Shown here: one piece after another, positions 22,971 to 51,424 of the stretch | Layout of the letters: the number at the start of each line of letters is the position of its first letter | How positions within the stretch are numbered: the stretch's first letter is position 1 | NCBI GenBank assembly: GCA_945862385.1 | Contig: CAMAXV010000003.1 | Span: 1 to 64,000, forward strand | Reading direction: 5' to 3' | DNA: 64,000 bases | Source of the DNA: Chitinophaga pinensis | Lineage (GTDB): Bacteria > Bacteroidota > Bacteroidia > Chitinophagales > Chitinophagaceae | The notes under the pieces: model-generated | Seen by the model: only the letters and a program-made list of their open reading frames with translations | What the model was told of the DNA's origin: nothing | Databases searched by the model: none | Program-made: the position numbers and the translations under genes

Positions 22971-23074
22971 CAAAAAATGGCAGGTTAATTACATCGCACC
23001 GCTCAACCACCTACCCTTGCTACCTTCCGGTCCTGGGGGATTTCAGCAGGAGCTGGTCGTGTAAGACCTGCCAC
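22971..23074 (-). ncRNA. ffs: Signal recognition particle RNA (small bacterial type)
   Basis: Read on the minus strand, TGGCAGGT (23073 to 23066) pairs with ACCTGCCA (22985 to 22978) to close a molecule of about 97 bases. The conserved apical hairpin is present (CCAGGACCGGAAGGTAGCAA, complement of about 23034-23015), which binds Ffh in all bacteria. A run of six U residues follows at about 22976-22971, and a perfect -7 element TATATTTG ends 3 bases before the predicted 5' end. No protein frame uses this interval. Confidence 0.92.
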
Positions 23075-23076
23075 TG

Positions 23077-23084
23077 CAAATATA
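23077..23084 (-). promoter_or_regulatory. Promoter -7 element of the SRP RNA
   Basis: TATATTTG on the minus strand (23084 to 23077) matches TAnnTTTG and lies just upstream of the expected SRP RNA 5' end near 23073. It is a few bases past the stop of the Plug-protein gene. Confidence 0.6.
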
Positions 23085-40539: not shown

Positions 40540-41619
40540 TTACTTCAAAAGGGCAGCCAACCTGGACTGCAGCTCCTGGCCTCGTAAATTTTTAGCAATA
40601 ATTACCCCATTGGGATCAATAAGGTAATTTTGAGGAATACTCTGGATTTTGTATTGAACGGCAACAGCATTACTCCAGAACTTTAAATCGCTTACCTGAG
40701 CCCAGTTCAGCTGATCATCCTTTATTGCCTTTAACCAAGGTTCCTTTGCCCTATCAAGAGAAACACCAAGTACTGTGAAATTCTTTGACTTGTATTTATT
40801 AAACGCATTCACTACATTAGGATTTTCCTGCCGGCATGGACCACACCAGCTTGCCCAGAAATCAAGCAAAACATATTTGCCTTTAAAAGATGACAGTTTT
40901 ATATCTTTTCCATTTTCGTCAGTCTGGGTAAAATCCGGAGCTAAGCTTCCCACGGCTCCAAACCTGGCATCCTCAACAATTTTCTCTGCCATTCTTCCAA
41001 AATAATTTGCTTTAGCCTGCTGCCCTATTCTTGAAAGTCTTTCTTCCATGATTTTGGGATCATCGTTCAACTGCATCATCACCAGAAGTAAAAAAGTTGA
41101 TACAGGCGACTGAGCATGATTGTTGATAAACTGATCAGTTTGGCGGGTCACCTCAGCAACCAGATCATTATATCCCTTTCTGATTGCTCCATTTTCATCT
41201 TTTGCGCCTTGATTAAGTTGTTGGGCAAAGCCGGTTAGTTTGGCAAAAAGCGGATTAAATGTATTGTTGAAAGCTGTAAAGTCGTCATGTGTGACTGAAC
41301 CTGAAATTTTTGCACTTTGCAAACTGATAAAGTCACCCTCAAGAGTCATATTGGCCTGATCAAGAAAAATAAGTAACTTTTGTTGTCCATTATTAGCCGA
41401 GAGCTGGTACAAGCCCGGTTCAGAGATATTTCCTTTTATCTCAATATTTTCTCCAATTGAAATTCCAGAAGCAACAGGCTCGGGACCAGACTCTTCATTC
41501 TTCAATACAAGCTCAGTTTTATCAGGCATTCCCTTCAATACACCCTTAATTGTGAATGATTTCTGTTGTGCAAACAACGCAAAAGGTGCTATTAAAAGCA
41601 ATAAAAGTATATTTCTCAT
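40540..41619 (-). CDS. TlpA-like thioredoxin protein with DUF4369 domain
   Basis: 359 residues with signal peptide MRNILLLLLIAPFALFAQ. The N-terminal DUF4369 domain (20-115, FTIKGVLKGMPDKTELVL) is followed by a helical linker and a C-terminal thioredoxin domain (from about 225) with FWASWCGPCRQENPNVV. The CGPC pair is intact. Such proteins act as periplasmic disulfide reductants or oxidoreductases in Bacteroidota. Its start overlaps the hisIE stop by four bases, so it probably belongs to the long trp-his transcription unit. Confidence 0.88.
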   Translation of the reverse strand: MRNILLLLLIAPFALFAQQKSFTIKGVLKGMPDKTELVLKNEESGPEPVASGISIGENIEIKGNISEPGLYQLSANNGQQKLLIFLDQANMTLEGDFISLQSAKISGSVTHDDFTAFNNTFNPLFAKLTGFAQQLNQGAKDENGAIRKGYNDLVAEVTRQTDQFINNHAQSPVSTFLLLVMMQLNDDPKIMEERLSRIGQQAKANYFGRMAEKIVEDARFGAVGSLAPDFTQTDENGKDIKLSSFKGKYVLLDFWASWCGPCRQENPNVVNAFNKYKSKNFTVLGVSLDRAKEPWLKAIKDDQLNWAQVSDLKFWSNAVAVQYKIQSIPQNYLIDPNGVIIAKNLRGQELQSRLAALLK

Positions 41620-42218
41620 GACTTGTGTCTTTGTTTTAGAACTTTCCGGATATCCTCTAAGTTAAATCCTTTACTGTTAAGTAAAATTAAATAGTGAAAA
41701 AGCAGGTCTGCTGCTTCATTTACGAAGAGTTCATCATTCTCATCCTTGGATTCTATAACCAACTCAACAGCTTCCTCACCTACTTTCTGGGCTATTTTAT
41801 TGATCCCTTTCTTAAATAAAGAACTTACATAGGATCCCTCGTCAGGACTATTTTTTCTTTGATTTATGATTTTTTCAAGCTGATCAAGGAAGTCTGTTGA
41901 AATATTTGCTTCATTCCAACAAGTATCTGCACCTGTATGGCACACCGGCCCAACTGGCTTCACCTTAAAAAGCAAGGCATCCTGGTCACAATCAACCTCG
42001 TAACTTTGAACGATTAAATAGTTGCCACTCTCTTCTCCTTTTGTCCACAAACGTTGCTTTGATCTGCTGTAAAAAGTAATTTGCCCGCCTGACATGGTCT
42101 TTGAAAAGGCATCACGGTTCATATATCCCAACATCAAAACCTTTGCGGTAACAGCATCCTGTATAACAGCAGGCACCAGTCCATCTGCAAACTTCCCGAA
42201 ATCGATTAATTTCTCCAT
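41616..42218 (-). CDS. hisIE: Fused phosphoribosyl-AMP cyclohydrolase / phosphoribosyl-ATP pyrophosphatase
   Basis: 200 residues. The HisI half (1-110) has MLGYMNRDAF, TFYSRSKQRLWTKGEESGN and the zinc-binding cysteine segment CDQDALLFKVKP...CHTG. The HisE half (120-200) has KIAQKVGEEAVELVIE and NEAADLLFHYLILL. The fused enzyme performs steps two and three of histidine synthesis. It is the last his gene of the set hisH-hisA-hisF-hisIE, 28 bases after hisF. Confidence 0.96.
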   Translation of the reverse strand: MEKLIDFGKFADGLVPAVIQDAVTAKVLMLGYMNRDAFSKTMSGGQITFYSRSKQRLWTKGEESGNYLIVQSYEVDCDQDALLFKVKPVGPVCHTGADTCWNEANISTDFLDQLEKIINQRKNSPDEGSYVSSLFKKGINKIAQKVGEEAVELVIESKDENDELFVNEAADLLFHYLILLNSKGFNLEDIRKVLKQRHKS

Positions 42219-42246
42219 TAGAATGTAAATTTACTGAATCCCATTT

Positions 42247-42999
42247 TTAACGAACAGAGATTTGCCGGGATTTTAGGAATGATTTTAATTCAGGAATCAT
42301 GACCTCTTTAAAATGGAAAATACTGGCTGCCAAAGCAGCATCTGCACCATGATCAAATATTTCTGCAAAATGTTCGGGGATGCCGCCACCGCCTGATGCA
42401 ATTACCGGCACATTAACAGTCTGACTAACAACCGCAGTTATTTCAGTAGCAAACCCTTTTTTAGTACCGTCATGGTCCATCGACGTTAATAAAATTTCAC
42501 CTGCACCAAGGCTAACCCCCTTTGCAGCCCAGTGTTCACAAATACTTTCAGTTGCCACTCTTCCTCCATTGAGGTATACATACCATTGGTTATCAGCATG
42601 TTTTTTGGTGTCTATGGCCAGCACAACACACTGACTGCCAAAAGAACTTGCCAGGCTTGCAATCAATTCAGGATTTTTAAATGCCGCAGTATTAACAGAG
42701 ATCTTATCTGCACCGCTATCTAATAAAATTCTAACATCTTCAACAGATGCTATCCCACCGCCAACTGTAAATGGAATATTGATTCGGTGAGCTATTCTGT
42801 CTACCAACTGTGCCAAAGTCTTTCTTTTTTCATTAGTAGCAGTAATATCGAGAAAAACAAGTTCGTCAGCTCCCTGATCAGCATACAACGCTGCCAGCTC
42901 AACGGGATCCCCTGCATCGCGGAGGTCAACAAAATTTGTGCCTTTAACAGTTCTTCCATCCTTTATATCCAGACACGGAATGATTCGTTTTGTAAGCAT
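42247..42999 (-). CDS. hisF: Imidazole glycerol phosphate synthase, cyclase subunit
   Basis: 250 residues. [20 protein letters not shown] contains the catalytic aspartate (D9 or near), and [27 protein letters not shown] binds the substrate phosphate. It forms the ring of imidazole glycerol phosphate with ammonia from HisH. It starts one base after the hisA stop on the minus strand. Confidence 0.97.
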
Positions 43000-43000
43000 A

Positions 43001-43732
43001 TTATCCCTTATGTGTATTTATAAAAGCCTCAAGCTCCTGAATCAAAATACGTCCTTCATAGATGGCTTTCCCAATAATAACACCATTACAACCTGCCTCT
43101 GCTAAAGCGTGAACATCATCCATGGATGAAACACCCCCGCTTGCAATTAGATTTAAAGCAGGATACGCCAACCTGATTTTACGGTATAAATCAACTGCAG
43201 GGCCTTCAAGCTTTCCATCCTTACTTATATCAGTACAAAAAACATTTCTGATGCCCTGATTTATTTGTGTTTCAAGGAATGGAAATAACTGAATGGAAGA
43301 TTTTTCAAGCCAGCCACTGACCATAATCATTTCATTTCTCACATCAGCTCCCAACATAAACCTGTCTGGACCAAACCGGACAATCCAGTCAGCAAATAGG
43401 TCAGGCTGTTTAGCTGCAACACTGCCAACAACAACATATTCAATACCAAGGTCAATAATCCGTTCAACTTCTGCTGCTGTTTTTACACCGCCACCAAAAT
43501 CAATAACAAGATCAGTATAACTTGCCAGTTGCTCAGCTATCTGCCAGTTTATTACCTTACCCTGCTTTGCGCCATCCAGGTCAACTAGGTGTAGCCTTTT
43601 GATCCCATGATCCTGGTATTGTTTAGCAATCTCCAAGGGAGATTGTGCATATTCTGTCTTCCTTGTATAATCACCTTCGGTGAGTCTGACACACTTCCCG
43701 TTGATCAGGTCAATCGCTGGAATAATATCCAT
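43001..43732 (-). CDS. hisA: 1-(5-phosphoribosyl)-5-[(5-phosphoribosylamino)methylideneamino]imidazole-4-carboxamide isomerase
   Basis: 243 residues. [22 protein letters not shown] contains the catalytic aspartate, and [21 protein letters not shown] plus [30 protein letters not shown] are the phosphate-binding loops of this half-barrel duplicate family. It isomerises ProFAR. Its ATG shares one base with the hisH stop. Confidence 0.96.
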
Positions 43733-44328
43733 TATGAAGGAATTTTTAAAAAATTATTGATAATTGAAGCCCCGACATCTGCACTTTTCTCAGGGTGAAA
43801 CTGGACCCCATAAAAATTATTCTTGTGCAGTGAGGCACTGTATTCGCCGCAATAATGCGTTTGTGCGATGGTATGTTTCCCAATACTTGCAAAGTAGCTG
43901 TGAACAAAATAGCAATAGCTGTTTTCATTAATTCCTTCAAACAGTGAACTTTTGAGGTTGGTAATACTGTTCCAGCCAATCTGAGGAATTTTTATACTAT
44001 TATCGGAAGTGCTGAACTTCCTGACGTTCTCCTCAAAGATACCCAGGCAGGTTGTGTCATTCTCCTCAGAATGTGAACACATTAACTGCATTCCCAGACA
44101 AATCCCAAGAAAAGGTTGCCGCGCATCGGCTATTACTCTGTCCAGGCTCCTTTCAGTGAGGTATGCCATCGCAGAACTGGCTTCTCCAACTCCAGGAAAA
44201 ATAATTTTATCCGCTGCATGAATGACTTCAGGGTCATCAGATATAATAGGAAAGATACCCTGTCTTTCAAGAGCTATCTGCACAGACCGGATGTTGCCGG
44301 CATTGTATTTAATAATTACGATTCTCAT
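43732..44328 (-). CDS. hisH: Imidazole glycerol phosphate synthase, glutaminase subunit
   Basis: 198 residues. Class I amidotransferase with the nucleophile in LGICLGMQLMC and the His-Glu pair in GVQFHPEKS. KIIFPGVGEASSAM supplies the oxyanion-strand region. It hydrolyses glutamine for HisF. It overlaps the end of trpA by four bases: this is the junction between the trp and his halves of the cluster. Confidence 0.95.
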   Translation of the reverse strand: MRIVIIKYNAGNIRSVQIALERQGIFPIISDDPEVIHAADKIIFPGVGEASSAMAYLTERSLDRVIADARQPFLGICLGMQLMCSHSEENDTTCLGIFEENVRKFSTSDNSIKIPQIGWNSITNLKSSLFEGINENSYCYFVHSYFASIGKHTIAQTHYCGEYSASLHKNNFYGVQFHPEKSADVGASIINNFLKIPS

Positions 44329-45122
44329 GGATTCTCATTGAGCACTGAAGCGATAAAATCAGCTGTAGCGGTAATGGGATTATTCCCTTTTGTCAGTGCC
44401 CCGATAAATGCAGAACCAATAATTGCACCATTTGCGTAGGGCACCACAGCTTTAAAAGTTTCACTGTCTTTTATTCCAAAACCAACCAATACAGGATTAT
44501 TGAGTTTGTACGTTCCTAATCGGATCAGATAGTCCTGAACAACTTTAAAATCCTTTTCTTTTCCTGTTGTTGAGGAGGAGGAAACAGCATAAAGAAATCC
44601 GGATGATAAACTATCCAGGTATCGTACCCTTTCTTCCGGAGTTTCAGGTGTAACCAAAAAGATGAAATCGAGACCGTTTTCAGCTAAAATGGTACGGTAT
44701 TTTGTTTCAAATTCATATGGTGGAAGATCAGGAAGGATTAGCCCATCTACGCCAACTGCTGCTGCCTTTTTACAAAAATCTTCAAATCCGTATTGCAATA
44801 CCGGATTCATATACCCCATCAAAACAACAGGTAGTTTAATTGAATCACGCATGGATTCAAGCTGACTGAACAAGGTGGAAATTGACATCCCGTTATTCAA
44901 TGCGATGGCACTGCTAACCTGTATAACAGGACCATCAGCGAGCGGGTCACTGTATGGCATTCCCAGCTCAATCAGGTCTACTCCAGCATCCTGTAAGGCA
45001 TTCATTACCGGAATTGTATCATGAAGTCCCGGATAACCGGCTGTAAAATATACGTTTAATACTGATTTACTTTTTCTGCTGAATAACTCCTTTAACCTGC
45101 TCATACATTTATTATTGTTCAT
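44325..45122 (-). CDS. trpA: Tryptophan synthase alpha subunit
   Basis: 265 residues. DLIELGMPYSDPLADGPVIQ has the catalytic glutamate and the aspartate loop of TrpA, and LVGFGIKDSETFKAV the phosphate-binding strand. It cleaves indole-glycerol phosphate. The start overlaps the trpB stop by 11 bases. Confidence 0.96.
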   Translation of the reverse strand: MNNNKCMSRLKELFSRKSKSVLNVYFTAGYPGLHDTIPVMNALQDAGVDLIELGMPYSDPLADGPVIQVSSAIALNNGMSISTLFSQLESMRDSIKLPVVLMGYMNPVLQYGFEDFCKKAAAVGVDGLILPDLPPYEFETKYRTILAENGLDFIFLVTPETPEERVRYLDSLSSGFLYAVSSSSTTGKEKDFKVVQDYLIRLGTYKLNNPVLVGFGIKDSETFKAVVPYANGAIIGSAFIGALTKGNNPITATADFIASVLNENP

Positions 45123-46305
45123 TCATTGCATTCATGTAAGTCCCAAGATCCTTATCTCCTCTCCCACTCAGGCAGACTACTGTAACATCGGTTTGTGCTA
45201 ATGACATACGCTCCAATGCAGCAAAAGCATGCGCAGTTTCGAGTGCAGGAATTATTCCTTCAAGCTTTGAAAGTTCAAAAGCCCAGCTCAGTGCTTCCTC
45301 ATCAGTTGCACTCATAAAAATCCCGCGTTTACTTTTAAATAAATGGGCATGCATCGGACCGATACCGGGATAATCAAGACCTGCAGAAATACTGTGAGGC
45401 TCTGTAACCTGTCCATCAGGCGTTTGCATCACAATACTTTTGCTGCCATGTAAGATTCCAGGAACACCCAACTGGGTGGTGGCAGCACTCATCCCACTGT
45501 ATATGCCATGACCTGCAGCCTCCACAGCTACAATATCAACGCTTTCTTCCTCCAGAAAATGATAAAATGCTCCTGCTGCATTACTGCCACCACCGACACA
45601 TGCAACCACTCTTGTAGGTAGCTCATTTCCGGTTTTATCGAGCAGCTGACTCCTAATTTCCTTGCTTATAACAGACTGAAAACGGGCAACCATATCAGGA
45701 TAAGGATGAGGCCCAACAACAGATCCTATAATGTAGTGTGTGTCTTCAGGATTGTTGATCCAATCCCTAATAGCTTCATTCGTAGCATCTTTCAAAGTCT
45801 TACTTCCACTTGTAGCAGGTATGACCTTTGCTCCAAGCATTTTCATCCTCGCAACGTTGGGTGCCTGACGTTCAATGTCCTTTTCACCCATGTAAACAAT
45901 ACATTCCAAGCCCTTTAATGCACAAACAGTTGCTGTAGCTACACCATGCTGACCGGCACCTGTCTCGGCAATTATCCTTTTCTTACCCAACCGATCAGCC
46001 AGCAAAATCTGACCAATTGTATTGTTTATTTTATGAGCGCCAGTATGACAAAGATCTTCCCGCTTCAGATAAATAGCTGAACCCAGTCGGCTACTCAATC
46101 TTTCTGCAAAAAAAAGCGGAGTAGGTCTGCCAACATAATCCCTGAGCAAAGCTTCAATTTCCTTTTGAAATACCGGATCTTCAATAATGGTTAAATACCT
46201 TAAACGCAGATTTTCTACATTGCTGTAAAGCATCTCGGGAATAAACGCCCCTCCAAAATCACCATAATAACCCAGCATATCCGGAACAGCATATTTAACT
46301 TCCAT
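45112..46305 (-). CDS. trpB: Tryptophan synthase beta subunit
   Basis: 397 residues. LKREDLCHTGAHKINNTIGQ carries the PLP-binding lysine, VACVGGGSNAAGAF binds the cofactor phosphate, and CLSGRGDKDLGTY ends the chain. It joins indole and serine into tryptophan. The sequence is the TrpB1 type that works with TrpA. It starts eight bases after trpF. Confidence 0.97.
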   Translation of the reverse strand: MEVKYAVPDMLGYYGDFGGAFIPEMLYSNVENLRLRYLTIIEDPVFQKEIEALLRDYVGRPTPLFFAERLSSRLGSAIYLKREDLCHTGAHKINNTIGQILLADRLGKKRIIAETGAGQHGVATATVCALKGLECIVYMGEKDIERQAPNVARMKMLGAKVIPATSGSKTLKDATNEAIRDWINNPEDTHYIIGSVVGPHPYPDMVARFQSVISKEIRSQLLDKTGNELPTRVVACVGGGSNAAGAFYHFLEEESVDIVAVEAAGHGIYSGMSAATTQLGVPGILHGSKSIVMQTPDGQVTEPHSISAGLDYPGIGPMHAHLFKSKRGIFMSATDEEALSWAFELSKLEGIIPALETAHAFAALERMSLAQTDVTVVCLSGRGDKDLGTYMNAMNEQ

Positions 46306-46313
46306 TTTCCTGA

Positions 46314-46943
46314 TTATTTTATAACTTTTAAAAATTGTTTGATTAAATCCATGTCCTTCACTCCCGGAGATACCTCAAATTTACTGTTGACATCCAGTGA
46401 AAAAAGATTTTTTTCTTTTTTACTGAATTCGAGCACCTTTTTTGCATCATCCAGACCAATACCTCCACTCATAAAATAAGGCTTTCTGATGCCAGCATCG
46501 AGCAGCAACTGCCAATTGAACTGTTCGCCTGTACCGCCATACTGAGCACCGAGTGTATCAAACAAATACATATCAACTGCATCATTGAACGGGTAGGTTT
46601 TATATGGAATATTTTCATCCTTCCCTATTCTAAATGCCTTAATGGTATTGACATGATTGGAAATACGTTCACAGTACCTTGGAGACTCATCTCCATGCAA
46701 TTGAACCATATCCAATCTCCACTCATCAACTAAACGCAGGAGTTGCTCCTCTGGTTCATTCACAAAAACACCTATTTTATTGATAGTCAACCGCTCTCTC
46801 TTTAATTTGTCAGCATTTAAACCACCCCTGAATGCATATCGGGGAGACCTGGGATAAAAAATCAATCCAGCAAAATCAACCCCGATTGACTCCAGTTCCT
46901 TAATTTGTTCAAGCATGGTCATACCACAAACTTTCAATCGCAT
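46314..46943 (-). CDS. trpF: Phosphoribosylanthranilate isomerase
   Basis: 209 residues. MRLKVCGMTMLEQIKELESI has the catalytic cysteine, and LIFYPRSPRY, MVQLHGDESP and SLDVNSKFEVSPGVKDMDLI are the family motifs. It is a separate gene, not fused to trpC as in Escherichia coli. It follows trpC by eight bases. Confidence 0.95.
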   Translation of the reverse strand: MRLKVCGMTMLEQIKELESIGVDFAGLIFYPRSPRYAFRGGLNADKLKRERLTINKIGVFVNEPEEQLLRLVDEWRLDMVQLHGDESPRYCERISNHVNTIKAFRIGKDENIPYKTYPFNDAVDMYLFDTLGAQYGGTGEQFNWQLLLDAGIRKPYFMSGGIGLDDAKKVLEFSKKEKNLFSLDVNSKFEVSPGVKDMDLIKQFLKVIK

Positions 46944-46951
46944 ATCCCCAT

Positions 46952-47731
46952 TTAAATTTTAGCGGTAAAGTTCCTGAATGCTTCTCCCGGATTATCATGT
47001 TTCATAAACGATTCTCCTATCAGAAATCCACTGTAGCCATTCTCTTTGAAAGCCCTGACCTGACTCGGTTCATTGATTCCGCTTTCAGCAATTTTTAATT
47101 TAGCTGTAGGAAGTTTGGCAGCCATCTTCATACTACGCTCAATATTCACATCAAAGGTTTTCAAACTCCTGTTATTTATACCAACAAAATCAACAGCATC
47201 ACAAACATGATCGAGTTCTTCTTCGTCGTGTAACTCCAGTAATACTTCGAGGCCAATATCATGTGCCAGCTTTGCCAGCGCAAGAACTTCCTTTGGTGTA
47301 AGGCAAGCTGCAATAAGCAAAATCAGATCTGCACCCAGAGATTTTGATTCGTGAATCTGATAAGGATCAATAATAAATTCTTTTCTGAGTATTGGAATGG
47401 ATAAATGAGGCCTGCAATTGATAATATCATTATCTGATCCTCCAAAAAAAAATTCATCCGTAAGTATTGATACGGCTGAAGCACCAGATAGTTGGTATGC
47501 CTGAGTTACATTTACTGGATCAGCAGTTGCATTAATCCATCCTTTAGATGGTGATTTTCGTTTGAACTCTGCAATAATTCCAGAAGACTTATTTTCAATC
47601 AAGGAAGCTTTCAATGAAATAACATCACGCTTGTAAGCATCAAGTGTTTCAAACAAACCTATGTTATTGATTTGCTTTCTTGCATCAACTTCTGCTCTTT
47701 TTCTTAAAACAATATTTTCCAGAATAGTCAT
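46952..47731 (-). CDS. trpC: Indole-3-glycerol phosphate synthase
   Basis: 259 residues. IIAEFKRKSPSKGWI contains the catalytic lysine and glutamate region, and LRKEFIIDPYQIHESKSLGADLILLI and VGINNRSLKTF are the barrel motifs. AESGINEPSQVRAF near the end binds phosphate. It closes the indole ring. It starts 11 bases after trpD. Confidence 0.96.
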   Translation of the reverse strand: MTILENIVLRKRAEVDARKQINNIGLFETLDAYKRDVISLKASLIENKSSGIIAEFKRKSPSKGWINATADPVNVTQAYQLSGASAVSILTDEFFFGGSDNDIINCRPHLSIPILRKEFIIDPYQIHESKSLGADLILLIAACLTPKEVLALAKLAHDIGLEVLLELHDEEELDHVCDAVDFVGINNRSLKTFDVNIERSMKMAAKLPTAKLKIAESGINEPSQVRAFKENGYSGFLIGESFMKHDNPGEAFRNFTAKI

Positions 47732-47742
47732 GTGCAGATATA

Positions 47743-48735
47743 TTATTGAATTGCCACTAAACTTTTAAGAACCCCGTATGCTTTTCTACTGATCAAACTT
47801 TCTTTGGCAGCATCAAAAGCATCTGCATAACTGGTATACTTACCCGTGAGCAACATAGCCATGGCTGCATTTGCAGAAACTACAGCATGCTGAGCCATGG
47901 TTCCTTCTCCTTTTAAGATGGCCATGAATAACTTTGCCGCTTCTTCTACTGTATCACCACCATAAATTTCATGGGGTGCTACAGACATTCCACCCAGGTA
48001 CTCCGGTGTAAAAACGCGTTCACCATCTGAAGTAATTACTTTTACATCTGAGGTAAGCGAAATTTCATCATACCCATCCAATGCATGGACAAGTGCATAT
48101 TTTCTATCAGATGATTGAAGCAGGTAATTGTAGATCCGGGCCATCTCCAGATTATATACACCTACAAGTTGAAAGGCAGGCTTACTTGGATTTACCATTG
48201 GTCCCAGCATATTGAAGAACGTTCTGACGCCAAGGTTCTTCCGGATTGGTCCGACAGTTTTTAATGCAGGATGAAATACAGGTGCATGCAGGAAACACAT
48301 GTTTGCTGCATCCAATTCCTGCCTGAGTTTATCCTGGTCATTTTTAAACTTGTAACCTATAGCATCCATCAAATTGGATGCTCCGCTTATTGAGCTGGCG
48401 CCATAGCTCCCATGCTTCGCAACTGGATGACCAGCGCCAGCTACTATAAAACAGGAAAGTGTTGAAATGTTAAAAGTATTCTTTCCATCACCACCCGTTC
48501 CAACAATATCCATCACCGGCCTCCCTTCAAAATCAATTGGCACAGCAAGCTCAAGCAATGCTTCCCTGAATCCCATCAACTCATCCATTGTAATGGTCCG
48601 CATCAAAAAAACCGTCATAAATGCACTCAGCTCATGCTCATTGAAAGCATGCTTACTGAGATCAAGTAAAATCTGCCTTGCCTGATCTTTTGACAGGGAT
48701 CTGTGTTCAAACAATTCATTCAAGATTTTTTTCAT
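47743..48735 (-). CDS. trpD: Anthranilate phosphoribosyltransferase
   Basis: 330 residues. MDIVGTGGDGKNTFNISTLS is the phosphoribosyl-diphosphate binding loop, and AKHGSYGASSISGASNLMDAIG the anthranilate/PRPP site. NMLGPMVNPSKPAFQLVGVY follows. It uses PRPP, which is also the entry substrate of histidine synthesis. It starts two bases after trpG. Confidence 0.96.
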   Translation of the reverse strand: MKKILNELFEHRSLSKDQARQILLDLSKHAFNEHELSAFMTVFLMRTITMDELMGFREALLELAVPIDFEGRPVMDIVGTGGDGKNTFNISTLSCFIVAGAGHPVAKHGSYGASSISGASNLMDAIGYKFKNDQDKLRQELDAANMCFLHAPVFHPALKTVGPIRKNLGVRTFFNMLGPMVNPSKPAFQLVGVYNLEMARIYNYLLQSSDRKYALVHALDGYDEISLTSDVKVITSDGERVFTPEYLGGMSVAPHEIYGGDTVEEAAKLFMAILKGEGTMAQHAVVSANAAMAMLLTGKYTSYADAFDAAKESLISRKAYGVLKSLVAIQ

Positions 48736-48737
48736 AG

Positions 48738-49343
48738 CTAACTATTTTTCAGGGGCGATAACAACCAGTTCTCCAACATTTTTTTTCCATTAGGGGTTAA
48801 TACACTTTCAGGATGAAATTGAACACCCTGTACATCGTAACTCCTGTGTCTCAATGCCATTATCATGCCTTGTTGATCAAATGCAGTTGATTCAAGTTCC
48901 GATGGAAAATTTTGACGGCTTACAATCCAACTGTGGTATCTTCCAACCTCTAATTTTTGTTGAAAACCCATGAACCAATCATTGTGGTTGATGGAAAAAC
49001 CGAGATTCGGGCAAAGCTCTATTTCAGTTGCAACCCCATGATAAACCTTATCCAGATTGGTCAACCTGCCACCAAATGCTTCTCCTATTGCCTGATGTCC
49101 CAAACAAACGCCAAACAAGGATTTTGTGGAAGCGAAGGTTCTTATCAGTGGTAATAAAATACCTGCTTCTTCTGGTATGCCGGGTCCGGGTGAAAGCAGA
49201 ATTCTGTCGTAAGCAGAAACCTCCTCCAGGGTGATTGCGTCATTGCGATAAACATCGACTGTTTCTCCCAAAATTTCTTTTGCAAGATGAACCAGGTTAT
49301 AGGTAAACGAATCGTAGTTATCTAATACTAGTAATCTTTTCAC
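48738..49343 (-). CDS. trpG: Anthranilate synthase component II (glutaminase)
   Basis: 201 residues. LLSPGPGIPEEAGIL, FGVCLGHQAIGEAFGG (nucleophile cysteine) and GVQFHPES form the class I amidotransferase triad. It supplies ammonia to TrpE. It may also serve folate synthesis as a PabA, as in several bacteria. It overlaps the trpE stop by four bases. Confidence 0.93.
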   Translation of the reverse strand: MKRLLVLDNYDSFTYNLVHLAKEILGETVDVYRNDAITLEEVSAYDRILLSPGPGIPEEAGILLPLIRTFASTKSLFGVCLGHQAIGEAFGGRLTNLDKVYHGVATEIELCPNLGFSINHNDWFMGFQQKLEVGRYHSWIVSRQNFPSELESTAFDQQGMIMALRHRSYDVQGVQFHPESVLTPNGKKMLENWLLSPLKNS

Positions 49344-50785
49344 AACATCTGATTTGCAAATTCAATGGCCTTTTTCAATGCCCCAAGCTTGTTATTAACT
49401 TCCTGGAGCTCACTTTCTGGAATGCTTGATGCTACTACACCAGCACCTGCCTGAAAGTACAATGTATTATTTCTGCTTAAAAAACTCCTGATTAAAATAG
49501 CCTGATTGAATGACCCATCAAAGCCTACCATACCTATAGCCCCGCCATAAAAAGACCGTGGTGTCTGTTCATATTGATCAATCAATTCCATAGCCCTGTA
49601 TTTAGGTGCCCCACTGAGTGTTCCTGCAGGAAAAGTTTTCGCAAGCAGTTCAAACGGATTGGAACCATCTCTGACATTTGCCACAACTTCACTCACGAGA
49701 TGTATAACATGAGAATAATATTTCACCTGTCTGTATTGAGCAACCTTTACATTATCGCATATTCTGCTTAAGTCATTGCGGGCAAGGTCTACCAGCATCA
49801 CATGTTCTGCATTTTCCTTTGGATCCTTCAATAACCTTTCTGCCTCTTTGATGTCCAGCGCATCATCACCGGTTCTTTTAAAAGTTCCGGCTATTGGATG
49901 CACTATGGCCTTTCCTCCCACAATTATGAGCTGACTTTCAGGTGATGAACCAAATAATTTATACTCCCCGTAATCGAAAAAGAACAAATATGGAGAAGGA
50001 TTAATCATTCGAAGTGCCCTGTAAACATTGAATTCATCGCCCGAAAATTTTTGCTGAAATCTTCTGCTCAAAACTATTTGAAAAACATCTCCCCGGTAAC
50101 AATGAGCAATACCTTTCCTCACCATTTCAAGATAATCCAGATCAGACAGGTTTGATGTTTCGGAACCAACAGACCTGAATGGAAACTGAGGGAGGTCACG
50201 GCCATTGATAATGTGCTCAACTGCTGCTAAATCTCCACTTAAACCAGGTACATGATTTTCAAATAAAAATAGCTGATCCCTGTGATGATCTATTGCTATT
50301 ACATACTGATAAAGTCTGTAGCGCAATACAGGTATTGCATCTGACTTTCCCAGAAATGAATCTGCTTTGGCCAATTCATCATATTCCCTTTCTTTGAACC
50401 CGATATTTTCAAAATAGGGGATAGCATCATAAGCAGTATAGCCAAATAATCCCTGTGCCATTTTCAATTCCTTTTCACCTGCTTCCACGTCATACTGCTG
50501 CATATAATCCCAAATCAGGTCTGGAACTGATTTTTGCTGAACAACTAATTGTTGGGGAACCCCAGTTGGATACTTAAATTCTACCTGCCGGTCCGCTCTG
50601 ATTTCAATACCCCCAACCGCATTTATCGCTATAAATGAAAAACTGTTTTCGGCTGTATGATGATCTGTACTTTCCAGCAATATGGTATCCCGAAACCGGT
50701 CGCGCAGACGCAGATAGATGCCGACAGGAGTAAACAGGTCAGCAGGCATTTTCTTTAAAGACGTTCTTAATTTAATTCTTTCCAT
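49340..50785 (-). CDS. trpE: Anthranilate synthase component I
   Basis: 481 residues. The LLES sequence near residue 38 (DTILLESTDHH) is the N-terminal motif associated with tryptophan feedback binding in TrpE. The chorismate-binding domain has RRFQQKFSGDEFNVYRALR, HPIAGTFKRTG, LVDLARNDL and TFPAGTLSGAPKYRAMELID. It is the first structural gene of the trp-his unit and lies directly after a predicted attenuator. Confidence 0.96.
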   Translation of the reverse strand: MERIKLRTSLKKMPADLFTPVGIYLRLRDRFRDTILLESTDHHTAENSFSFIAINAVGGIEIRADRQVEFKYPTGVPQQLVVQQKSVPDLIWDYMQQYDVEAGEKELKMAQGLFGYTAYDAIPYFENIGFKEREYDELAKADSFLGKSDAIPVLRYRLYQYVIAIDHHRDQLFLFENHVPGLSGDLAAVEHIINGRDLPQFPFRSVGSETSNLSDLDYLEMVRKGIAHCYRGDVFQIVLSRRFQQKFSGDEFNVYRALRMINPSPYLFFFDYGEYKLFGSSPESQLIIVGGKAIVHPIAGTFKRTGDDALDIKEAERLLKDPKENAEHVMLVDLARNDLSRICDNVKVAQYRQVKYYSHVIHLVSEVVANVRDGSNPFELLAKTFPAGTLSGAPKYRAMELIDQYEQTPRSFYGGAIGMVGFDGSFNQAILIRSFLSRNNTLYFQAGAGVVASSIPESELQEVNNKLGALKKAIEFANQML

Positions 50786-50800
50786 GTCTATTCGTACATG

Positions 50801-50836
50801 ATATTAAAAAATAAAGCCCCGAATATTCGGGGCTTT
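50801..50836 (-). terminator. Attenuator terminator in the trp leader
   Basis: The minus-strand sequence folds into a perfect 12-bp palindrome (50813-50836; arm AAAGCCCCGAAT) followed by ATTTTTT. It lies between the leader peptide stop (50859) and the trpE start (50785), so it is inside the transcript, not after a gene. Its 5' arm can pair instead with TCGGGGC (50870 to 50864) inside the leader peptide. Confidence 0.9.
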
Positions 50837-50858
50837 TAATATAGTATATACAATACAA

Positions 50859-50915
50859 TTACTGCCCCGATTTGGAGTAAGGATGCCAGCCATTAATTGT
50901 ATAATTTCCTTTCAT
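50859..50915 (-). CDS. trpL: trp leader peptide (attenuator peptide)
   Basis: ATG at 50915, 18 codons, TAA at 50859-50861. The peptide reads MKGNYTINGWHPYSKSGQ, with Trp at 10 and His at 11. Codons 16-18 hold TCGGGGC, identical to the 3' arm of the downstream terminator and therefore complementary to its 5' arm. A ribosome waiting at Trp10 or His11 leaves this segment free to form an antiterminator; one at the stop codon covers it. No other function for this frame is apparent. Confidence 0.75.
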   Translation of the reverse strand: MKGNYTINGWHPYSKSGQ

Positions 50916-50920
50916 TTTTA

Positions 50921-50951
50921 CAAAAATGAGAATTTTTATCAAATAATCAAA
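50921..50951 (-). promoter_or_regulatory. Probable promoter of the trp-his unit
   Basis: TTTG (50951 to 50948), then 19 bases, then CATTTTTG (50928 to 50921), seven of eight positions of TAnnTTTG with the expected spacing. Transcription would begin within a few bases of the leader peptide ATG at 50915, so the leader peptide may be translated from a nearly leaderless RNA. Confidence 0.5.
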
Positions 50952-50989
50952 ATAAATGTTAGATTTTAGATAAAAAACGGACATAAAAT

Positions 50990-51424
50990 TTATTTCAGGT
51001 AACGTTTTATTTCGCGGTCTGATTCACGTTGTTTAATGGTTTCACGCTTATCATGCAGTTTCTTTCCACGGCCTAATCCAATCTGTATCTTTGCCAGCCC
51101 CCTTTCACTAAAATATATTTTCAACGGGATGATTGTCAGTCCCTTTTCTTTGAGTTTCTGAGCAATTTTATTGAGCTCTTTTTTCTTCAATAATAATTTG
51201 CGATCCCTCGTTGGAACATGGTTAGCATAGCTGCCAAAAGAATAATGTGAAATGTGCAACCCCTTTATGTATAATTCACCTCTGTCTACCAGGCAATAAC
51301 TATCGTTGAAACTGGCTTTCCCTTCCCTGAGTGCTTTGACTTCAGTTCCGGTTAACATCATCCCTGCATCGAATTTATCTTCAATGAAATATTCAAAAGT
51401 GGCTGATTTATTCCTTATCTCCAT
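50990..51424 (-). CDS. smpB: SsrA-binding protein SmpB
   Basis: 144 residues. EIRNKSATFEYFIEDKFDAG and GTEVKALREGKASFNDSYC are core motifs, with GLHISHYSFGSYANHVPTRDRKLLLKK and a basic C-terminal tail RETIKQRESDREIKRYLK. It binds tmRNA and ribosomes to rescue stalled translation. The tmRNA gene is not in the window. It is upstream of the trp leader on the same strand; no obvious terminator separates them. Confidence 0.97.
   Translation of the reverse strand: MEIRNKSATFEYFIEDKFDAGMMLTGTEVKALREGKASFNDSYCLVDRGELYIKGLHISHYSFGSYANHVPTRDRKLLLKKKELNKIAQKLKEKGLTIIPLKIYFSERGLAKIQIGLGRGKKLHDKRETIKQRESDREIKRYLK

Follow-up and report, generated by a model that had tools for sequence, protein, structure and literature searches.

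Organization of the trp-his locus

In the window, by which we mean the whole 64,000-nucleotide stretch of Chitinophaga pinensis DNA that was analyzed, a short leader frame and an intrinsic terminator stand at the head of 11 genes in the order trpEGDCFBA-hisHAF-hisIE (Table 1). The genes are joined by overlaps or by gaps of at most 28 nt. The overlap between trpA and hisH is 4 nt, and the median trpA-hisH gap across the his-linked loci described below is -3 nt.

Table 1. Features of the leader region and the downstream operon (window coordinates)
Feature	Coordinates	Strand	Basis or remark
smpB	50990-51424	-	Before the leader region
-33-type promoter element TTTG	50948..50951	-	Read from sequence; 19 nt before the -7 box
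-7 promoter box CATTTTTG	50921..50928	-	One mismatch to consensus TAnnTTTG
Leader peptide gene MKGNYTINGWHPYSKSGQ, including stop codon	50859..50915	-	Read from sequence; family-wide conservation
Control codons Trp10 (TGG, 50888-50886) and His11 (CAT, 50885-50883)	50883..50888	-	Invariant in closest relatives
Region 2 (TCGGGGC), antiterminator 5' half, within leader codons 16-18	50864..50870	-	Pairs with terminator 5' arm
Terminator 5' arm (region 3) AAAGCCCCGA	50827..50836	-	Folding and terminator scan
Terminator 3' arm (region 4) TCGGGGCTTT, then U tract ATTTTTTA (about 50812-50805)	50813..50822	-	Folding and terminator scan
trpE, anthranilate synthase component I	49340..50785	-	
trpG, trpD, trpC, trpF, trpB, trpA, contiguous	44325..49343	-	
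hisH, hisA, hisF, hisIE, contiguous with trpA	41616..44328	-	

The coordinates bear out the 18-codon frame, with WH at codons 10-11, that a first-pass annotation of this DNA had drawn: it runs on the minus strand from an ATG at 50915 to a TAA stop at 50861-50859 (ATG AAA GGA AAT TAT ACA ATT AAT GGC TGG CAT CCT TAC TCC AAA TCG GGG CAG TAA). The same annotation had pointed to promoter-like elements and to a perfect 12-bp terminator with a U tract, and each call stands in part. There is a promoter, but it is of the Bacteroidota type (TAnnTTTG/TTTG) and not of the sigma-70 type. There is also a terminator, but its stem is 10 bp long with a 4-nt ATAT loop; the figure of 12 bp arose because the whole palindrome was counted, loop included. 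This terminator (50836-50813, AAAGCCCCGA-ATAT-TCGGGGCTTT, then ATTTTTTA) has a dG of -17.1 kcal/mol, with a z score of -5.0 against shuffles, and no other strong terminator-like site turned up in a 10-kb scan across 41000-51000.

Region 2 repeats the sequence of the terminator 3' arm and can form 7 bp with the 5' arm, a pairing that had been proposed earlier and that sequence and folding both confirmed. The truncated RNA with the antiterminator folded at -14.7 kcal/mol (z score of -3.2). A scan with 4227 Rfam families, attenuator leaders included, gave nothing above the gathering threshold at the leader site. The only Rfam match in the window was a Bacteroidales small SRP RNA at 22974-23080 on the minus strand.

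The TTTG element and the -7 box are 19 nt apart in the window, where the family mode is 20, and the end of the -7 box lies 5 nt from the leader ATG, where the commonest value in the family is 7 nt. We found -7 boxes 4-8 nt upstream of the ATG at 149 of 223 loci, compared with 159 of 1115 shifted controls. The accessible text of PMC9723704 places the Bacteroidota -7 box at -12 to -5. Because of the placement of the -7 box relative to the leader ATG, we predict from the spacing a 5' UTR of 1-3 nt, with transcription in the window starting at 50916, about 1 nt upstream of the ATG. As far as the accessible sources go, 5' UTRs of <10 nt (or leaderless transcripts) are rare in the phylum (3.7% in PMC7366714 and 5.5% in PMC9723704), and trpL of Sinorhizobium meliloti is a known leaderless case (PMC7298713).

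Conservation of the predicted attenuator among Bacteroidia

We sampled trpE loci from Chitinophagaceae, from other families of the order, and from other families of the class (Bacteroidia). With duplicates removed, a recognizable leader was present at about 170 loci in Chitinophagaceae and about 50 in other families of Bacteroidia. Automatic calling gave no leader for L167, L275, and L290; chance calls at L112, L269, L270, L291, L303, and L306 were dropped, and manual assignment was used for the window and for L323. The same layout precedes trpE in nearly all relatives examined, with a terminator detected for 224 of 226 leaders, and, judged from the sequences, the layout is beyond chance.

The commonest leader form in the family is NN(K/Q)WWWHTNSxRGL (WWWH). 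In the window's genus and the relatives closest to it, the form is NN(G/S)WH or similar, while leaders outside Chitinophagaceae have WW(W) and then a variety of residues. An earlier remark that the switch is unusual in having a single Trp codon is apt for this genus but not beyond it, where relatives mostly have three Trp codons. Across 7 distinct leaders of the closest relatives, Trp10 and His11 are unchanged and the subsequent residues vary.

The distance from the last Trp codon to the start of region 2 is 15 nt in the window, 13-15 nt in most relatives, and 12-17 nt in 127 of the 132 family loci with a clear match. The residues that encode region 2 vary across the family (RGL, KGL, SGVL, QG) while region 2 itself persists, as expected for a constraint on the RNA; matching outside Chitinophagaceae was crude, and this conclusion is confined to the family. 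The shuffled controls for region 2 permuted single bases and not dinucleotides. When the RNA of 171 family loci was cut before the 3' arm, the median folding energy was -15.9 kcal/mol with region 2 exposed versus -1.7 kcal/mol with region 2 covered.

A short leader frame with Trp codon(s) is thus present upstream of trpE, an intrinsic terminator stands between the leader and the first structural gene, and sequence and folding indicate a pairing that depends on ribosome position and excludes the terminator, the switching itself being predicted. The anatomy and its family-wide conservation support a ribosome-mediated trp attenuator. The first-pass annotation's reading of the site as an attenuator is supported by a Trp-run leader, region 2, and terminator that are all conserved family-wide.

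One f58 genome has a tRNA-Trp gene (anticodon CCA) between the attenuator and trpE, on the trpE strand (L325:10139-10210, minus strand). That operon may also produce the tRNA that its own leader senses.

The leader His codon tracks his linkage

We scored a locus as his-linked when hisH and either hisA or hisF lay behind trpA on the same strand within <5 kb, using the flanking DNA or, where contigs ended, the genomic position of hisH. The tests excluded loci whose his status was unknown, those with hisH alone, and those whose hisH was distant. Immediately after the Trp run, a His codon occurs at 118 of the 121 loci with his genes and at 27 of the 73 loci without them, so that trp-his leaders hold control codons for each amino acid that the operon makes (Trp10-His11 in the window), as a multi-amino-acid attenuator does. 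Within Chitinophagaceae, 111 leaders with his genes have the His codon and 2 do not, compared with 19 and 22 where his genes are absent; the two exceptions with his genes, WWGH and WWWQH, carry His one codon later. In the other families, the codon is present in 7/8 leaders with his genes (one without it) and in 8/32 leaders lacking them (24 without it). L283 lacks the His codon despite having his genes. At L151 and L152, only hisH lies behind trpA; these leaders read WWWQ, with a His codon just before the Trp run. The codons at the His position of linked loci are CAT (97), CAC (21), and, once, CAA.

Correlated evolution was assessed on a TrpE tree with 194 tips. A model that lets linkage affect how His is gained and lost outperformed the independent model (LR 36.5, p 1.2e-8), bearing in mind that a tree from TrpE alone may differ from the species tree and that some of the genomes are incomplete metagenome bins. 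The correlation was also seen in Chitinophagaceae alone (p 4e-7) and in the other families alone (p 0.03). Parsimony gave 18 changes of his linkage and 21 of the His codon, and 22 of the 25 maximal clades lacking His have no his genes throughout. The other three are the WWGH singleton, the WWWQH singleton, and one mixed clade that includes L283. Controls were much weaker: the next three residues gave LR values of 9.8, 10.7, and 4.7, Trp-run length gave 0.3, and His elsewhere in the leader gave 1.3. Codon content has evolved with operon content, as the correlated evolution and its controls indicate, which is a supporting feature of such a switch and not part of its formal definition. The first-pass annotation had proposed dual sensing on the understanding, set beforehand, that the His codon should not be equally conserved where his genes are missing; it is not equally conserved there, and the proposal stands.

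Location of the remaining his genes

We also located hisHAFI in six genomes whose trp loci lack his genes. Five of the six (L315, L316, L318-L320) have a single his operon in which hisHAFI come after hisGDCB; the contig of the sixth (L317) stops after hisF. Upstream of hisG, a filter-based search found a His-rich leader in 5/6 of these genomes, L317 being without one; the leader peptides at L315, L316, L318, L319, and L320 include MKKHTHNHHHHLLHP and MINRTHNHHHHILRFQCRP. In the window's genome, hisGDCB stand alone on another contig, C12 (loci L312 and L113), where they are preceded by the leader VSTNIHIHHHLIP, whose start codon is GTG, and by a terminator; together these look like a His attenuator. 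With hisGDCB apart behind a leader of their own, hisHAFI here would come under the Trp attenuator and not the His attenuator, and this Trp attenuator holds a His codon. The genome of L211 (G071) has, on contig C12 near 406846, a separate trpB-trpA-hisH-hisA/F cluster about 45 kb from trpE.

A probable Trp-or-His switch and its alternatives

We consider it highly probable that the leader is a ribosome-mediated attenuator that senses tryptophan or histidine on behalf of the 11-gene trp-his operon, a reading strongly supported because, in the comparison across loci, the His codon tracks his linkage. RNA polymerase would start about 1 nt upstream of the leader ATG, so that the ribosome would load at the extreme 5' end. 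Scarcity of charged tRNA-Trp or tRNA-His would stall the ribosome with Trp10 or His11 in the A site, its front edge ending just short of region 2. Left free, region 2 would pair with the 5' arm of the terminator before synthesis of the 3' arm, and transcription would proceed into the structural genes. With both amino acids plentiful, a ribosome at the stop codon would cover region 2, the terminator would form, and transcription would stop. By the usual footprint, the front edge of a ribosome lies about 12 nt past the A-site codon's first base. With His in the A site, that edge would fall just before region 2, which would make His11 about the last codon whose stalling frees region 2. The His codon would have been retained because four his genes (hisH, hisA, hisF, and hisIE) lie here and not in the His-attenuated his operon.

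A leader that senses tryptophan alone, its His codon being a product of shared ancestry or a spacing codon that senses nothing, is unlikely in our judgment. The 27 loci with a His codon and without his genes do indicate that the codon is sometimes kept without presumed use, and Gln, Leu, and others occupy its position in many Trp-only leaders. However, a spacing role would be indifferent to residue identity, and the correlation withstands correction for relatedness (p ~1e-8), is specific to the position, and recurs in other families.

We find it very hard to credit that hisHAFI are driven by a separate promoter within trpA, with the leader having no practical control over them. Such a promoter is compatible with the sequence taken by itself, but trpA and hisH overlap or nearly abut, as noted above, and the correlation of the His codon with his genes would be left unexplained. 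Retention of the CAY codon for RNA pairing and not for histidine is more improbable still. The codon does lie within a structured leader, and its Y could pair with a downstream purine, yet downstream RTGCC partners, present at just 17 of the 121 linked loci, show no association with his linkage (LR 3.9, p 0.14), which leaves the pairing unsupported; moreover, the use of CAT and CAC and practically never of CAA or CAG points to the amino acid.

Returning to the Trp-or-His switch, we think the following joint reading likely: a nearly leaderless trp attenuator extends across Bacteroidia and its His codon decays without hisHAFI; when the trp operon includes hisHAFI, the codon occupies roughly the last place at which the antiterminator is still freed; and this genus, with one Trp and one His codon, has an even two-input OR gate. 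According to theory in the accessible text of PMC1183508, one control codon per amino acid should mean low sensitivity. Where a leader has three Trp codons and one His codon, the response may be modest; the ratio of Trp to His control codons in the window's genus is 1:1.

Relation to known attenuators and significance

The trpL attenuators of Escherichia coli and other proteobacteria likewise have a leader with Trp codons, a mutually exclusive antiterminator and terminator, and trpE downstream, as is generally known and as the accessible text of PMC1183508 describes. Unlike those attenuators, the present one has region 2 inside the end of the leader frame, a His codon after the Trp codon(s), a single Trp codon in this genus, and his genes in its operon. 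In hisL attenuators, too, a terminator is preceded by a leader peptide with His codons, but these occur in runs, whereas here a single His codon accompanies Trp codons ahead of trp genes. In the thr (Thr, Ile) and ilvGMEDA (Ile, Val, Leu) operons of enterobacteria, a single leader with codons for several amino acids responds to each of them. Both attenuators are named in the accessible text of PMC1183508. The leader described here, known from sequence, resembles thrL and ilvL in having codons for more than one amino acid; theirs are for amino acids that share a pathway, whereas here the separate Trp and His pathways are joined. The rnTrpL/peTrpL of S. meliloti, which belongs to a different phylum, is similar in that its transcript starts at or beside the leader ATG (PMC7298713, accessible text), a start that is predicted here from promoter spacing.

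Our literature search, which covered mostly sources outside subscription journals and some of these in part, found no direct report of trp attenuation in Bacteroidetes or of a Trp-plus-His leader. For a flavobacterium, the accessible text of PMC9723704 describes strong clues to attenuation by leader peptides located upstream of amino-acid biosynthesis operons. We conclude that trp attenuation here would be an ordinary switch and that its Trp-or-His variant appears unusual, well supported, and new within the literature searched. If true, this would be the first leader peptide in that literature to join two separate amino-acid pathways. It would also describe attenuation across a phylum with little documentation of it and provide a rare case for tracing, through many gains and losses, how a regulatory codon evolves once genes have been rearranged.
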